DNA of 35,281 nucleotides from NCBI GenBank assembly GCA_027063065.1, contig JAMOSO010000041.1, forward strand, positions 1 to 35,281, read 5' to 3'. This DNA comes from Planctomycetota bacterium. Its GTDB lineage: Bacteria; Planctomycetota; JAMOSO01. Position 1 is the stretch's first letter. The number at the start of each line of letters is the position of its first letter. The notes beneath the pieces were generated by a model. The model saw only the letters and a program-made list of their open reading frames with translations, was not told the origin of the DNA and ran no database searches. Position numbers and translations under genes: made by a program. Positions 1,602-21,950 of the stretch are shown in pieces.

Positions 1602-3116
1602 TTAGACAATTTTGGATATTACTAGACTTAATAAATTTTGTAATTCTTTATTTTTGAGATTATTGAGATGGTTAATGGCTTGGGTTTTATAGTCATTTAA
1701 TAATTTAATAGCTTTTGGCTGTAAATTTAATCTTTTTGCTTCGTTTTGAATTATAACTTGCTGTGTTTGGCTTAATGTTTTACTTTGCCAAGCATTGTCA
1801 ATAATGGTTGATATGTTTTTATCACATTCTTGACGTACCATAGCTAACAAAGCAGAAGGTCGCATAGCAGCAATATCAGCACCACCATCATCGCCAAAAA
1901 AGTCAAGCATGTCATCTCTTATTTGAAAAGCAATACCTAAAGCATTACTAAACTTTTTTAATATTTTACATTGACTATCATCAGCGCCACCAGCAATAGC
2001 CCCTAAGCATAGTGCTACTTCAAATGCCGGTGAGGTTTTAAGTTTAAAAATATTTATTACTTTTTTTAAATTAATTGTTGTGGGTGTGCGCATCCAAGAT
2101 AATTCTTCACCCTGCCCTAAACTTAAATCTCTATGGCCATCTGCAGATACTTTAACCATACGTTGTATTTTTGCATTATCAAAAGTGGAGTTAGCCAGCA
2201 TACGATAGCCTTCTCCAATTAGATAATCTCCAACGTTTAAAGCTATTGGTACACCATAGCTAGTATGCATAGTGTCTTGACCGTATCTTTCGTCATCATT
2301 ATCTTCTATGTCATCGTGTATTAATGATGCTTTGTGAAAACATTCAACTGCTAATGCTACTTTTTTTATAGAATCGGGAGATGTTTTGTCTTTACTTAAA
2401 ATAGTATACACATAATATGCCAATAATGGACGCCATCGTTTGCCAGCAGTAGCGACCCAAGATATGCCAAGGTTTTCTGTTTCTGTAAAGTTGCTATTAA
2501 ATAATATATCTAAGTTTTCTTTGCTAAACCAAGTATTTACTTTATGTCTTGCAGTATTAAAATCAAAGTGATTATTGGTGCTTATATTTTTGATATGCAA
2601 AAAATCTTCTACCCAACTAATATCCTCAAGTTTATTATTATGTAAAACAAAGGCTATAACAGGTATTCCAAGAGCAGATATTTTTTGCCAGCCTTTGTGT
2701 AATATTTCAAAGTCTCCTATGGCTATAATAGCCTGATACTTTGTGCTACAAATAGCTTTTGATACGGCATTTTTGTCATCTATGTTTATGGTGGTAATGT
2801 TGTTGCTACAGGCAAGTTCTAAAATACTTGTACAATTTGTGTTGTGTGTGTCAGTTGGTAATAATAAAAGTCGCTTGGAGGTTTTTATACCTAAAACTGT
2901 GTCTCTCCATAATTCGTTTGAAATTTGCAGGCCAATATAAGCCTGCCAGTTAACTTGCCAACTTTTACGTTTTATGATTTCTAATGCATAATCAATAATG
3001 TCGTTTTGTGTAACTGGATTTTGAATGCCTCGTGAGGCTATTGTTTCTTTGACAACTGTGCAGATTTCCTGCCGAGTATTAAACTCGGCAGGAAATTGTA
3101 AAACATCTTTATTCAT
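1602..3116 (-). CDS. Polyprenyl (isoprenyl diphosphate) synthetase with DUF116-like N-terminal region
   Basis: The C-terminal ~290 residues are a class II trans-prenyltransferase, which condenses isopentenyl diphosphate onto an allylic diphosphate. Visible motifs are GKRWRP (about 225-230), the first Asp-rich motif DDIED (about 268-272) and the second, DDMLD (about 401-405). The small Ala five residues before the first motif is typical of enzymes making long chains, such as quinone side chains or lipid carriers. The family is usually about 320-340 residues; this one has 504. The extra N-terminal part (about 80-175) has the pattern of DUF116 (RLLLLP, then AIIAIGDFE, then GIPVIAFVL) but keeps few of its cysteines. 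ATG 3116 is preferred and overlaps the stop of the regulator upstream by 8 nt; a TTG at 3131 is an alternative. Neither has a good ribosome binding site, so translation is probably coupled. Confidence 0.88.
   Translation of the reverse strand: MNKDVLQFPAEFNTRQEICTVVKETIASRGIQNPVTQNDIIDYALEIIKRKSWQVNWQAYIGLQISNELWRDTVLGIKTSKRLLLLPTDTHNTNCTSILELACSNNITTINIDDKNAVSKAICSTKYQAIIAIGDFEILHKGWQKISALGIPVIAFVLHNNKLEDISWVEDFLHIKNISTNNHFDFNTARHKVNTWFSKENLDILFNSNFTETENLGISWVATAGKRWRPLLAYYVYTILSKDKTSPDSIKKVALAVECFHKASLIHDDIEDNDDERYGQDTMHTSYGVPIALNVGDYLIGEGYRMLANSTFDNAKIQRMVKVSADGHRDLSLGQGEELSWMRTPTTINLKKVINIFKLKTSPAFEVALCLGAIAGGADDSQCKILKKFSNALGIAFQIRDDMLDFFGDDGGADIAAMRPSALLAMVRQECDKNISTIIDNAWQSKTLSQTQQVIIQNEAKRLNLQPKAIKLLNDYKTQAINHLNNLKNKELQNLLSLVISKIV
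3064..3096 (-). repeat. Perfect 14-bp inverted repeat inside a coding region
   Basis: Arms 3064-3077 (atttcctgccgagt) and 3083-3096 are exact reverse complements, separated by 5 bases. In the mRNA the hairpin begins about 20 nt after the ATG of the polyprenyl synthetase gene. No U-tract follows, so it is not an ordinary terminator. Confidence 0.9.
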
Positions 3117-3678
3117 CCAGTGTTCGTTCAATTGCCGAAATTAGAGTTTCAGTGTCAAATGGTTTGTCTAACATACCATCTACCCCACTATCTTCTAAGC
3201 GTTTGCGTCCTTCATCGGTAATATGGCCAGAAACTACTAAAATTTTAATATCATCTGTTTCGGATGTTTCTTTTACTTTTTTAACAATCTCATACCCGTC
3301 CACATTAGGCATATTTAAGTCTAATAAAATTAGTCTAGGGTGTGCTGTTACAATGCGCATACCTGCTTCAAAGCTGTCGGTGCATATTTCATAGTCGTAT
3401 CCAGCTTCCATTAATGCATCGCGCATTACTTCTGCAACATTAGGTTCATCATCAATAATCATTATTTTGCATAGGCTATTTACCAAGTCGTCTGGAACTG
3501 GCATTTTAAATTCGGTTAAGAAGTTAATTAAATCCTTACGAATTACACGATTAGAACCGCCTGGCAACTGGTGTGCTTTTAATTGACCGTCACTAATCCA
3601 ACGCAATACTGTTTTAAAATTTACTTGACAATATTCTGCAATTTTTCGTGGCGATAATGGTTTTTCTCTTTTTTTCAT
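3109..3678 (-). CDS. Response regulator with N-terminal excisionase-type HTH and C-terminal receiver
   Basis: Residues about 8-56 form a MerR/excisionase-like DNA-binding domain (LSPRKIAEYCQV, then TVLRWISDGQL and a GGSNR wing). Residues about 70-189 form a CheY-like receiver with all key positions: the acidic pair D76/D77, phospho-acceptor D120 (LLDLNMP), S150 (VVSGH) and K172 (DKPF). It should therefore be a phosphorylatable transcription regulator. The order, DNA-binding first and receiver last, is the reverse of OmpR or NarL families. No histidine kinase is in the window. The start at ATG 3678 is chosen over an upstream ATG because GGAG lies 6 bases before it; the product has 189 residues. 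It is the first gene of a likely operon with the polyprenyl synthetase, whose start overlaps its stop. Confidence 0.88.
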   Translation of the reverse strand: MKKREKPLSPRKIAEYCQVNFKTVLRWISDGQLKAHQLPGGSNRVIRKDLINFLTEFKMPVPDDLVNSLCKIMIIDDEPNVAEVMRDALMEAGYDYEICTDSFEAGMRIVTAHPRLILLDLNMPNVDGYEIVKKVKETSETDDIKILVVSGHITDEGRKRLEDSGVDGMLDKPFDTETLISAIERTLDE

Positions 3679-3707
3679 AATCAGCTCCATTCAAATATAA
3701 AACGGAC

Positions 3708-6909: not shown

Positions 6910-7401
6910 TTACTTACCGCAACATTTTTTAAATTTTTTACCGCTACCACAATTACAAGGGTCATTACGGCCTTGCTTGGGTTGTTCGTTTATAATTGGT
7001 TTGACGTCTGCAACGAGTTCTCCGTCGTAAAAATACCAAATACCATCGTGTTTTTTAAATTCGCTGATTTCATGGTGTATATGATGTTCTCCAGAATTGT
7101 CATATTTAGCTATAAATTCAACAATGCCTTGTTCGTCATTTTCTTTGCCATCTTTTACATTGATTAAATCAAAACCATGCCACTCTGATTTATTTGCCCA
7201 TTCTCGTATATTGGATTGGTCTATAGAGTCTCTTGTGTCTGGATGACAAGAGTCAACAATATATTTAACTTTTGACAAAGTGAATGCTGTGTATCTAGAT
7301 CGCATCAATCTTTCAGCAGTAGGAACGGCTTTTGCGCCTTCAATATATGGTTCGCAACATGAGCTGTATTCTGTTTTACTTCCGCAAGGGCATAAAGCCA
7401 T
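6910..7401 (-). CDS. ychJ: YchJ family protein with two SEC-C motifs
   Basis: A 163-residue protein of the UPF0225/YchJ family. It has a Cys-rich SEC-C-type motif at each end: [13 protein letters not shown] at residues 4-16 and [13 protein letters not shown] near the C-terminus. These motifs bind zinc in SecA. The middle has the NTF2-like YchJ core ([40 protein letters not shown]). The cellular role is not established. The start is well supported by AGGAG 6 bases before the ATG. It is separated from the engB operon by a terminator and probably has its own promoter. Confidence 0.9.
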
Positions 7402-7440
7402 GGGTATCTCCTATAATAATTACAAATGGTTCAATACAAT

Positions 7441-7475
7441 ATGCAATTTTAATAAAATTTCAATTTAAAATATTA
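7441..7475 (-). promoter_or_regulatory. Possible promoter of ychJ
   Basis: On the minus strand TTGAAA and TATTGT occur about 16 bases apart within this stretch, some 40-65 bases upstream of the ychJ ATG. The -10 match is imperfect. A promoter is expected here because a terminator-like hairpin precedes it. Confidence 0.35.
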
Positions 7476-7504
7476 GCAGTATTGTATGATATGTAAAAAT
7501 AAAC

Positions 7505-7550
7505 AATAAAAATAAAAAGGAAATAATGGGGAACGTCAAAAGACGTCCCC
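7505..7550 (-). terminator. Probable intrinsic terminator of the engB operon
   Basis: Bases 7528-7537 and 7542-7550 form a GC-rich stem (GGGGACGTC with GACGTTCCCC on the minus strand, one bulged base) with a TTTT loop. On the minus strand it is followed by a T-rich stretch, ATTATTTCCTTTTTATTTTT. Its place, about 80 bases after the engB stop and before ychJ, fits an operon end. On the plus strand no T-tract follows. Confidence 0.6.
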
Positions 7551-7633
7551 GATGGGAAGTGGAGAATGTCATGGGACACCCTAACCAATTATTATATCGG
7601 CATAATAATGCGCCAACCTTAATGTTTTTTTAG
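7526..7633 (+). CDS. Possible 35-residue small protein (or part of a structured RNA)
   Basis: A short frame starts at ATG 7526 with AAGGA four bases upstream, the same arrangement as before mlaD, and ends with TAG at 7631. The peptide begins MGNVKRRPRWEVENVMGHPN and has a basic, Trp- and Pro-containing start and a hydrophobic end. Against it: the codons are G+C-rich for this genome (about 53% in the first 60 bases by my count), the first codons lie in the terminator hairpin of the opposite strand, and it overlaps the last 4 bases of engB. The GC-rich block may instead be a small structured RNA. I do not recognise a family. Confidence 0.3.
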   Translation: MGNVKRRPRWEVENVMGHPNQLLYRHNNAPTLMFF

Positions 7634-8286
7634 GCATTTAAAAAAGCAAAGCCATCACCTGTTTGGCGTTGGCGAGTTTCTTGTGTGCCACGCAAGTAAT
7701 CTGTTAATAAGCCTAACCCTTCTCCTGTATGAGCTGAGACCCAAAAAGTATCTTTTATGTTTATATCATAAGGTTTTAAGGCTTTGGAGATTTCCTTTTC
7801 ACGTTTGGAACGCATTTTTTGATTTTTTAAAGCGTCTTTTTTACTAAAAACTAAAGTATAATTAATACCTTCTCCTTGTAAAAACTCAAGGGTTTCTAAG
7901 TCTAAGTCGGTTGGTCCATGTCTGGCATCTAAAACTAAAACAGTTGTACTTATGTTTTGATCGCTAACTAAGTATGCTTGAATTAAATCAAATAATTCAA
8001 TTGTTTCTTCTCGTGGGCCATGTGCAAAACCATAGCCAGGTAAATCGGTTATAATATGTTTTATATCTTTCCAATTATAAAACACAATTTTACGAGTGCA
8101 GCCAGCTTTTTTTGAGCTTTGTGCAACATTTGCATGTACAAGAGCATTAATGAGTGATGATTTACCAACATTTGATCGCCCTAGCATTGGGATTCTGGCT
8201 TGGTTATATTCCAATAAATACTCGCCATTTAGCAAATTTGGTAATTGTTTAGGTGAACCAAGGGTGGTTATATATTCTACAGACAT
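7630..8286 (-). CDS. engB: Ribosome biogenesis GTP-binding protein EngB (YsxC/YihA)
   Basis: A 218-residue TRAFAC-class GTPase involved in late 50S subunit assembly. The motifs are G1 GRSNVGKSS (about 37-45), a G2 Thr in the GCTRKI segment, G3 DLPGYGFA, G4 SKKD (SKKD instead of the commoner TKxD) and G5 SAHTGEG. The length is close to the usual 195-215. It is the last gene of a seven-gene minus-strand operon, 27 nt after the DUF3859 gene, and is followed by the terminator. There is only a weak ribosome binding site (TTGGAT). Confidence 0.94.
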   Translation of the reverse strand: MSVEYITTLGSPKQLPNLLNGEYLLEYNQARIPMLGRSNVGKSSLINALVHANVAQSSKKAGCTRKIVFYNWKDIKHIITDLPGYGFAHGPREETIELFDLIQAYLVSDQNISTTVLVLDARHGPTDLDLETLEFLQGEGINYTLVFSKKDALKNQKMRSKREKEISKALKPYDINIKDTFWVSAHTGEGLGLLTDYLRGTQETRQRQTGDGFAFLNA

Positions 8287-8313: not shown

Positions 8314-8691
8314 TTAAACCATAATTAATGTCTTTTTGGCAACTTCTTTATTGTCTAACCAAGTTGTTAAGGTCCAGTTACCAATTTTATCTTGTAAGGG
8401 ATTCCAAAACGTATCGCCTAAAAAAAATCTAAAATCATTACTTCTAACATATAATTCTCCTGTAAATGGTTTTGCTTTATCACCATTTTCATTTTTAAAT
8501 GGAGGATGCTCTATTTTAAAAGTTATTTTTTTACCTTTTGCCTTTTTTATGCGTAATACATAGCCAAATTCTATATCCAAACCAACTGGTATTGTATCTG
8601 TAAATTTAATAATGGATGGTATTTCTTTTTTGCCAGTATGAGGGCTATACAGGCCATAGCTTTCTATGTTTATTTCTATCTTTTTAGCCAT
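8314..8691 (-). CDS. DUF3859 domain protein
   Basis: A 125-residue protein that fills one DUF3859 domain. Recognisable points are INIESYGLYS near the start, GLDIEFGYVLRI, FKIEHPPFKN, and GNWTLTTWLDN near the end, giving an all-beta, immunoglobulin-like pattern. Its function is unknown. There is no signal peptide, so it is probably cytoplasmic. ATG 8691 is preferred; it overlaps the stop of the upstream coiled-coil gene by 8 nt (GATGGCTAA), which suggests coupled translation. Confidence 0.72.
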   Translation of the reverse strand: MAKKIEINIESYGLYSPHTGKKEIPSIIKFTDTIPVGLDIEFGYVLRIKKAKGKKITFKIEHPPFKNENGDKAKPFTGELYVRSNDFRFFLGDTFWNPLQDKIGNWTLTTWLDNKEVAKKTLIMV

Positions 8692-9415
8692 CTGCTTGTA
8701 GTTCGGCAATTATAGTTTGATATTCTTTGATTTCTTCAAAATATCTGTGTAAATTATTTTGAATCCGATAGTTGTCTACTTCTGGCAAGTCTTTGATTTC
8801 TCTTGCAATTGATAAATATTGCATAGTTGAATCAATACTTTTGCCTAAATTTTCTATTGTGTGTTGTTTGTATTCTTGCAATTTGTTTTCTGTTGTTTTG
8901 TAGCTGACTAATTTGTCGTGTATATTGTTTTGCTCTGTACTGAGATCAGTTGAAAGATGTTTGAGTTTTATTATGCGATCTTCTGTCTTGCGTGAAGGTG
9001 GTAACGTCATTAATGAATCATATTCGGTATTGCTTGCTTTTATTTCCTCGGCTATTTCAATAAGTCTATTTTCTAAATATTCTGGTGTATCATTGCCGAG
9101 GGTGTTTTTTTCGATTTCCATTAAACGCTCATATTTATTTCTATACCATAAAACCACACATTGACAGAGTTTTAATCCAAGTAAAATTTGTAACTTCAAT
9201 TTTTGATATGCGTCTTTGCTGCCTTCTGAACCTTGATTGGCAATGCTTCCTAAGATAGATTGTGCCTCACGATATTCTTTTTCACCATTATATTTTAAGC
9301 CAGTTTCATATAATACTTGTGCTTTGCGCATCCCACTGCGAAAGGCTTTTTCTTCGGCGGATTCCCCAAGAAATAACCTTAACATAGCTAGGACTAAATT
9401 TTCAACAAAGTGCAT
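8684..9415 (-). CDS. Unknown helical coiled-coil protein
   Basis: A 243-residue protein I cannot assign. It starts with an amphipathic helix (MHFVENLVLAMLRLFLGES) and then is almost entirely helical and charged, with heptad-like stretches over about 100-205. A TPR-like stretch may be present early (ETGLKYNGEKEYREAQSIL). No catalytic motif is visible. AAAGGA lies about 13 bases before the ATG, a rather long spacing. It lies between the RlmK-like methyltransferase and DUF3859 genes and its stop overlaps the DUF3859 start, so the two unknown proteins may act together. Confidence 0.7.
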   Translation of the reverse strand: MHFVENLVLAMLRLFLGESAEEKAFRSGMRKAQVLYETGLKYNGEKEYREAQSILGSIANQGSEGSKDAYQKLKLQILLGLKLCQCVVLWYRNKYERLMEIEKNTLGNDTPEYLENRLIEIAEEIKASNTEYDSLMTLPPSRKTEDRIIKLKHLSTDLSTEQNNIHDKLVSYKTTENKLQEYKQHTIENLGKSIDSTMQYLSIAREIKDLPEVDNYRIQNNLHRYFEEIKEYQTIIAELQADG

Positions 9416-21562: not shown

Positions 21563-21603
21563 TAATTGATTTTTGATACATTTAAATGTGCAATATCGCA
21601 AAC

Positions 21604-21631
21604 TTGAAATTTAGGCATATTTTGATATAAT
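21604..21631 (+). promoter_or_regulatory. Sigma70-type promoter of the small gene after priA
   Basis: TTGAAA (21604-21609) and TATAAT (21626-21631) are 16 bases apart, and TGA precedes the -10 directly, so it is also an extended -10. A leader of about 35 nt would carry the GGAAG site. Confidence 0.7.
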
Positions 21632-21672
21632 ACATATTCTTGTAATTTTACCATGATTGTTTGGAAGTACTT

Positions 21673-21948
21673 ATGATAGTTGAAGACAATGAAATCGTTA
21701 TAGATGATAATAATTATCAAATAATAAAAGGCTTAGATATAGCAGTGTTTCGCTCGGGTGAGTCCTTAATGTATACGAGCTTACTTGAGGATGGCACTCC
21801 AGAAACATGGTTTGATGAGGTTGACTCTATGATTGAATTTTCATGGGATGGTGATACAGAGAAAAAAAAGTATCAAAGTAAATTAAAACGAGCCATTGGT
21901 CAACTTGCTAAAATAGAAGAAGAACGCACCTATCCTTGTTTAAAATAA
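21673..21948 (+). CDS. Small acidic protein of unknown function
   Basis: A 91-residue acidic cytoplasmic protein. It begins MIVEDNEIVIDDNNYQI and looks alternately stranded, then has an Asp/Glu-rich middle (DEVDSMIEFSWDGD) and a helical Lys-rich C-terminal third (KKKYQSKLKRAIGQLAKIEEE). I do not recognise a family. The start ATG 21673 has GGAAG 5 bases upstream and a strong promoter. An in-frame TTG at 21661 is less likely. Its stop lies 2 nt from that of the convergent DUF1294 gene. Confidence 0.78.
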   Translation: MIVEDNEIVIDDNNYQIIKGLDIAVFRSGESLMYTSLLEDGTPETWFDEVDSMIEFSWDGDTEKKKYQSKLKRAIGQLAKIEEERTYPCLK

Positions 21949-21950
21949 TT

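Follow-up and report, generated by a model that had tools for sequence, protein, structure and literature searches.

A GC-rich, hairpin-forming islet behind engB in a Planctomycetota genome as a possible structured 3′ untranslated region

The gap downstream of the GTPase gene engB holds a short GC-rich islet, which folds into three hairpins on the strand of that gene. We propose, at a probability slightly short of even, that engB transcripts carry this islet as a structured 3′ untranslated region, from which a 3′-end RNA of ~95-110 nt may arise. In favour of this reading, engB runs directly into the islet on the same strand. The fold by strand, the composition and the gene order are read directly from the DNA, and the open reading frames (ORFs) of the islet failed the tests for coding potential.

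According to the model that we favour, the islet would act as RNA, from the engB-sense (minus) strand. It would presumably be transcribed together with engB, and the three hairpins would form just past the engB stop codon, within the 3′ untranslated region. In the U-rich stretch after the last hairpin, transcription would stop, or the 3′ end might be trimmed back and protected, which would place the 3′ end of the RNA at hairpin 3. The remaining RNA, again of ~95-110 nt, could be set free, or could remain in the cell, as a small RNA, which might conceivably act in trans. We regard the islet as a modest lead and no discovery. If it yields a stable RNA, it would be a first regulatory-RNA candidate for a class that has one genome among those compared; if it is a transcript end only, it is ordinary.

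Location and composition of the islet

The islet was found in a stretch of 35,281 nt with 32% G+C, hereafter the window. Both of its neighbours are encoded on the minus strand. Upstream lies the engB/yihA/ysxC GTPase gene (7630-8286; TIGR03598 above cut-off), and downstream a gene of the ychJ family (SEC-C; 6910-7401; NF002449 and PF17775 above cut-off). The 228-nt gap between them (7402-7629), which follows engB and precedes ychJ, contains a GC-rich structured core of ~95 nt (7526-7620), which has 46% G+C and carries the three hairpins on the engB-sense strand. Its richest part (7526-7584) reaches 53% G+C, a value in the top 0.5% of all 59-nt segments of the window, genes included. Next to the core is an AT-rich stretch (7402-7524, 19% G+C) with promoter-like hexamers and the Shine-Dalgarno (SD) sequence of ychJ on the minus strand; the promoter matches are not above chance. 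The original prediction had described the whole block 7505-7633 as a GC-rich islet of about half G+C. The rich part exists but is narrower than that, since the block measures 37% and only 7526-7620 and 7526-7584 come near the quoted value. Directly upstream of engB, a protein of the DUF3859 family is encoded at 8314-8709 (minus strand), and the coding sequence that comes next after it (8684-9415) had no family above cut-off.

For comparison, a sample of 435 kb was assembled from the window and 400 kb of further sequence of this genome. Simple ORF calls yielded 394 genes in it, with 116 gaps that measured 60 nt or more. When gaps were ranked by their richest 59 nt, that of the islet was 8th of the 116. 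Twenty-one gaps reached at least 0.508 G+C, and 13 of them held either tRNAs (5 gaps) or small protein genes confirmed by Pfam (8 gaps: S18, FeoA, S16, S14, L35, L34, L36 and L31). The gap of the islet is among the remaining eight, which have no assigned gene. The expectation that GC-rich islets in an AT-rich genome often mark functional RNAs is borne out here, but such gaps mostly mark genes for either RNA or protein. Thus, G+C alone flags genes such as tRNAs and small ribosomal proteins in the gaps of this genome, a cheap search route.

GC-rich gaps of the AT-rich genome of 'Cand. Pelagibacter ubique' have been used likewise to seek structured RNAs (PMC2704228). The islet resembles those candidates as a GC-rich stretch with predicted stems in an AT-rich gap. 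However, that search drew on marine metagenome relatives, whereas the islet has no relatives among the genomes compared. Elsewhere in the sample, a purine-rich intergenic segment on the plus strand (L087:1030-1195) reaches up to 66% G+C and is followed by ten T; it had no Rfam match, and it folds no better than its shuffles (z 0.1).

Secondary structure of the engB-sense strand

The minimum free energy of the core (7526-7620) is -33.3 kcal/mol for the minus strand and -27.4 kcal/mol for its complement. Compared with dinucleotide shuffles, the minus-strand fold has a z-score of -3.3 (equalled by 1 of 200 shuffles), and -3.7 in a second run, while that of the plus strand is about -2. The minus-strand energy lies within the lowest 1.3% of intergenic 95-mers. 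Counting against an RNA, a z-score as low is found in 5% of intergenic windows, hairpins being frequent in the intergenic DNA of this genome. We dropped the difference in fold energy between the strands as evidence, since it is equally large in 38% of intergenic windows. Six of the 27 pairs in the minus-strand fold are G-U pairs, which would be A-C mismatches on the other strand.

In the order of transcription, hairpin 1 (7596-7617, minus strand) pairs GUUGGCG with UGCCGAU around an 8-nt loop, including three G-U pairs (pair probabilities 0.81-0.96). Hairpin 2 (7560-7587, minus strand) is formed by UGG-AGGGUGUC and GACAUUCU-CCA around the loop CCAU (0.73-1.0). Hairpin 3 (7529-7550, minus strand), an imperfect terminator-like stem, reads GGGGACGUC-UUUU-GACGUUCCC with the tail CATTATTTCCTTTTTATTTTTATTG; in DNA letters, it is GGGGACGTC-TTTT-GACGTTCCC (7550-7529), with 9 pairs and -15.1 to -15.9 kcal/mol. 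This is the good stem that had been anticipated in the block, and it was found at 7550-7529 (minus strand) with 9 pairs and -15.9 kcal/mol. In a context of 259 nt all three stems were stable in the ensemble, the base of hairpin 3 being weaker (~0.53). The second repeat of the original prediction, ATTATTAT/ATAATAAT, is present at 7588-7595/7602-7609 and consists of A and T only, but its arms overlap the G/C-richer stem 7617-7611/7602-7596, and the AT-only pairing is not favoured in the fold. Taken together, the minus-strand z-scores, the three ensemble-stable stems and the mostly genic nature of GC-rich gaps lend limited support to the suggestion that the islet is a structured RNA.

The plus-strand open reading frame

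An ORF of 35 codons with a ribosome binding site had been proposed for the plus strand. Both elements are there (7526-7633, ATG at 7526, AAGG in the SD position), and we judged the frame not to be coding. It is very unlikely that the islet encodes the corresponding protein of 35 amino acids (MGNVKRRPRWEVENVMGHPNQLLYRHNNAPTLMFF), whose gene would converge with engB and diverge from ychJ. The layout is tidy, with a gap of 19% G+C, an SD, an ATG at the GC-rich edge and a stop codon overlapping that of engB. Moreover, by the rule that accepts AAGG, an SD precedes 42% of called genes vs 4% of spurious ORFs. However, when real 35-codon pieces are scored alongside, the frame falls at the 5th percentile for codon log-likelihood and at the 1.7th percentile for synonymous codon choice; 30% of spurious ORFs attain its log-likelihood. 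G+C at third positions (GC3) is 0.46 vs 0.24 in genes, a value reached by 0.6% of pieces, and fits a base-pairing constraint better than a protein constraint.

The start site also argues against translation. The start codon abuts a stem of a kind absent from 99% of SD-led genes, and the start region (-20..+40) folds at -15.1 kcal/mol, which 0.8% of SD-led genes reach. The translation had no Pfam or PHROG match. A frame of this size is unsurprising by chance, as gaps of the sample hold 48 ATG-initiated ORFs of 30-60 amino acids, five of them with an SD. Codon use and start-site folding thus speak against the small-protein alternative of the original prediction. Two minus-strand ORFs of 35 and 42 amino acids were rejected as well, because their codon scores are below all real pieces and they had no Pfam or PHROG match. 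Elsewhere in the window, an open frame of ~90 amino acids (21674-21948, plus strand) occupies the gap 21563-21950 and falls below the listing cut-off used.

Relatives and known RNA families

None of 4227 Rfam families (among them 6S, SRP, riboswitches, Spot 42 and CsrB/C) matched the islet at its gathering threshold, and the best sub-threshold match at relaxed thresholds was Aar (26 of 60 bits, E 0.06). The genome holds no second copy of the islet. DNA searches against 98 genomes of the phylum, phages, plasmids and viral contigs gave no matches or AT-rich chance matches. A single-sequence covariance model run against 392 genomes of the phylum returned two weak matches at chance level (E 0.05 and 0.14), and EngB used as bait for related loci found no close relative. 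No other genome in the comparison belongs to the class of the source genome, and the searches within the phylum covered its other classes. The lack of any homologue or Rfam match in these searches counts against the proposed RNA.

Divergent housekeeping RNAs were considered and rejected. The window contains no tRNA or tmRNA, and the genome has its SRP RNA, RNase P RNA and tmRNA at other loci. A search of the genome for 6S RNA found none, but the islet, too short for it and made of three separate hairpins, does not qualify.

Small RNAs derived from the 3′ ends of mRNAs have been reviewed (PMC9438474). Like them, the islet follows a stop codon immediately and shares the strand of the gene, with a last hairpin followed by U-rich sequence; the position directly 3′ of the engB stop and the structured predicted 3′ end are those of a 3′-UTR-derived small RNA. 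It differs in its imperfect terminator and in having no conserved seed, and as an RNA it is a prediction from sequence. In gamma-proteobacteria, spf lies beside engB and csrC in the next gap (PMC3295665). The likeness to these Spot 42 (spf) and CsrC loci next to engB/yihA is restricted to the position of a small-RNA gene near engB. The other neighbours differ (no polA in the window), there is no Rfam match, and the lineage is distant, with a 16S rRNA ~75% identical to the nearest records of the plasmid collection, which are enterobacterial.

The transcript end and alternative readings

Hairpin 3 forms a GC-rich stem-loop on the strand from which engB would be read, at a distance of 79 nt from the stop codon of that gene. 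It shares with the intrinsic (Rho-independent) terminators of this genome a stem followed by U-rich sequence on that strand, but those terminators lie 22-37 nt after stop codons (eight in the sample) and have U at 5 of the first 5 and 7-8 of the first 8 tail positions. Hairpin 3 has no immediate U-run (T at 2 of 5 and 5 of 8). Two further U-run terminators stand farther off, at 147 and 176 nt, with tRNA genes in between. Since distant terminators occur only where tRNA genes intervene, the 79 nt before hairpin 3 leave room for an RNA element, and hairpins 1 and 2 take up this space. Based on its distance and on the few U at the start of its tail (2 of 5), hairpin 3 is an untypical, at best imperfect, terminator, although the comparison rests on a small sample and palindromes without U-runs stand at other gene ends of this genome too. 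The terminator that the original prediction suggested for the engB operon is on the right strand, but its anatomy is unlike that of the genome's own terminators.

A minority chance goes to an ordinary transcript end, in which hairpin 3 would serve the engB operon as a plain, somewhat degenerate intrinsic terminator, while the remainder of the islet would be incidental and without a role. Strand, strong stem and U-rich stretch are as this would require, hairpins are common near gene ends in this genome (41 of 138 ends), and among hairpins that follow gene ends in the window hairpin 3 is the strongest, barring one palindrome inside a coding sequence. Yet the tail and the distance depart from the U-run terminators, and the GC-rich stretch and the two upstream stems are left unexplained. 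We give a slightly smaller chance to the possibility that the DNA behind engB encodes a structured non-coding RNA of ~100 nt that is specific to this lineage and has its own regulatory function. It is unlikely that hairpins 2 and 3 constitute a small-RNA gene in its own right, transcribed from a promoter within the islet. A candidate, TTGGCG-17-AATAAT, is suitably placed (7616-7588, minus strand), sigma-70-like hexamers are readable before tRNA-Met and rpmH in this genome, and engB adjoins small-RNA genes in gamma-proteobacteria (PMC3295665); nevertheless, promoter-like sites number 9 vs 8.4 expected from shuffles, and the Rfam models of Spot 42 and CsrC were not matched.

The islet might also belong to the gene downstream, as a switching 5′ leader of ychJ in which GGGGA (7550-7546) can pair with the upstream UUCCC (7558-7554) and not within hairpin 3. 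The alternative stem is present, and the base of hairpin 3 is only ~53% formed in context. We consider this highly improbable, as the competing hairpin is weak, at -5.0 kcal/mol against -15.9 kcal/mol for hairpin 3, and as hairpin 3 is separated from ychJ by an AT-rich stretch of ~120 nt that contains promoter-like sites. Least credible is descent from a REP-like or other mobile palindromic element, be it as a remnant or as a non-autonomous copy. The GGGGACGTC palindrome resembles the ends of some Y1-transposase elements, a lead only. The islet has one copy in the genome, the genome has no Y1 transposase gene (PF01797), and the phages and plasmids searched gave no match. In this genome, a mobile element is largely refuted.

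Two other palindromic sites were observed. In a similar gap on the minus strand (L097:8364-8633), a 17-pair hairpin, TGAAAGGGGTGTTTCGC...GCGGAACACCCTTTTTG, stands 83 nt after a stop codon, and its tail is rich in U but forms no run. In the window, the near-perfect palindrome ATTTCCTGCCGAGTTTAATACTCGGCAGGAAAT (~3064-3096, minus strand, -23.3 kcal/mol) falls in the first codons of a polyprenyl-synthase-like coding sequence (1602-3131) and just after a response-regulator coding sequence (3109-3690). Either the start of the former is misplaced, or the element lies within a coding region.
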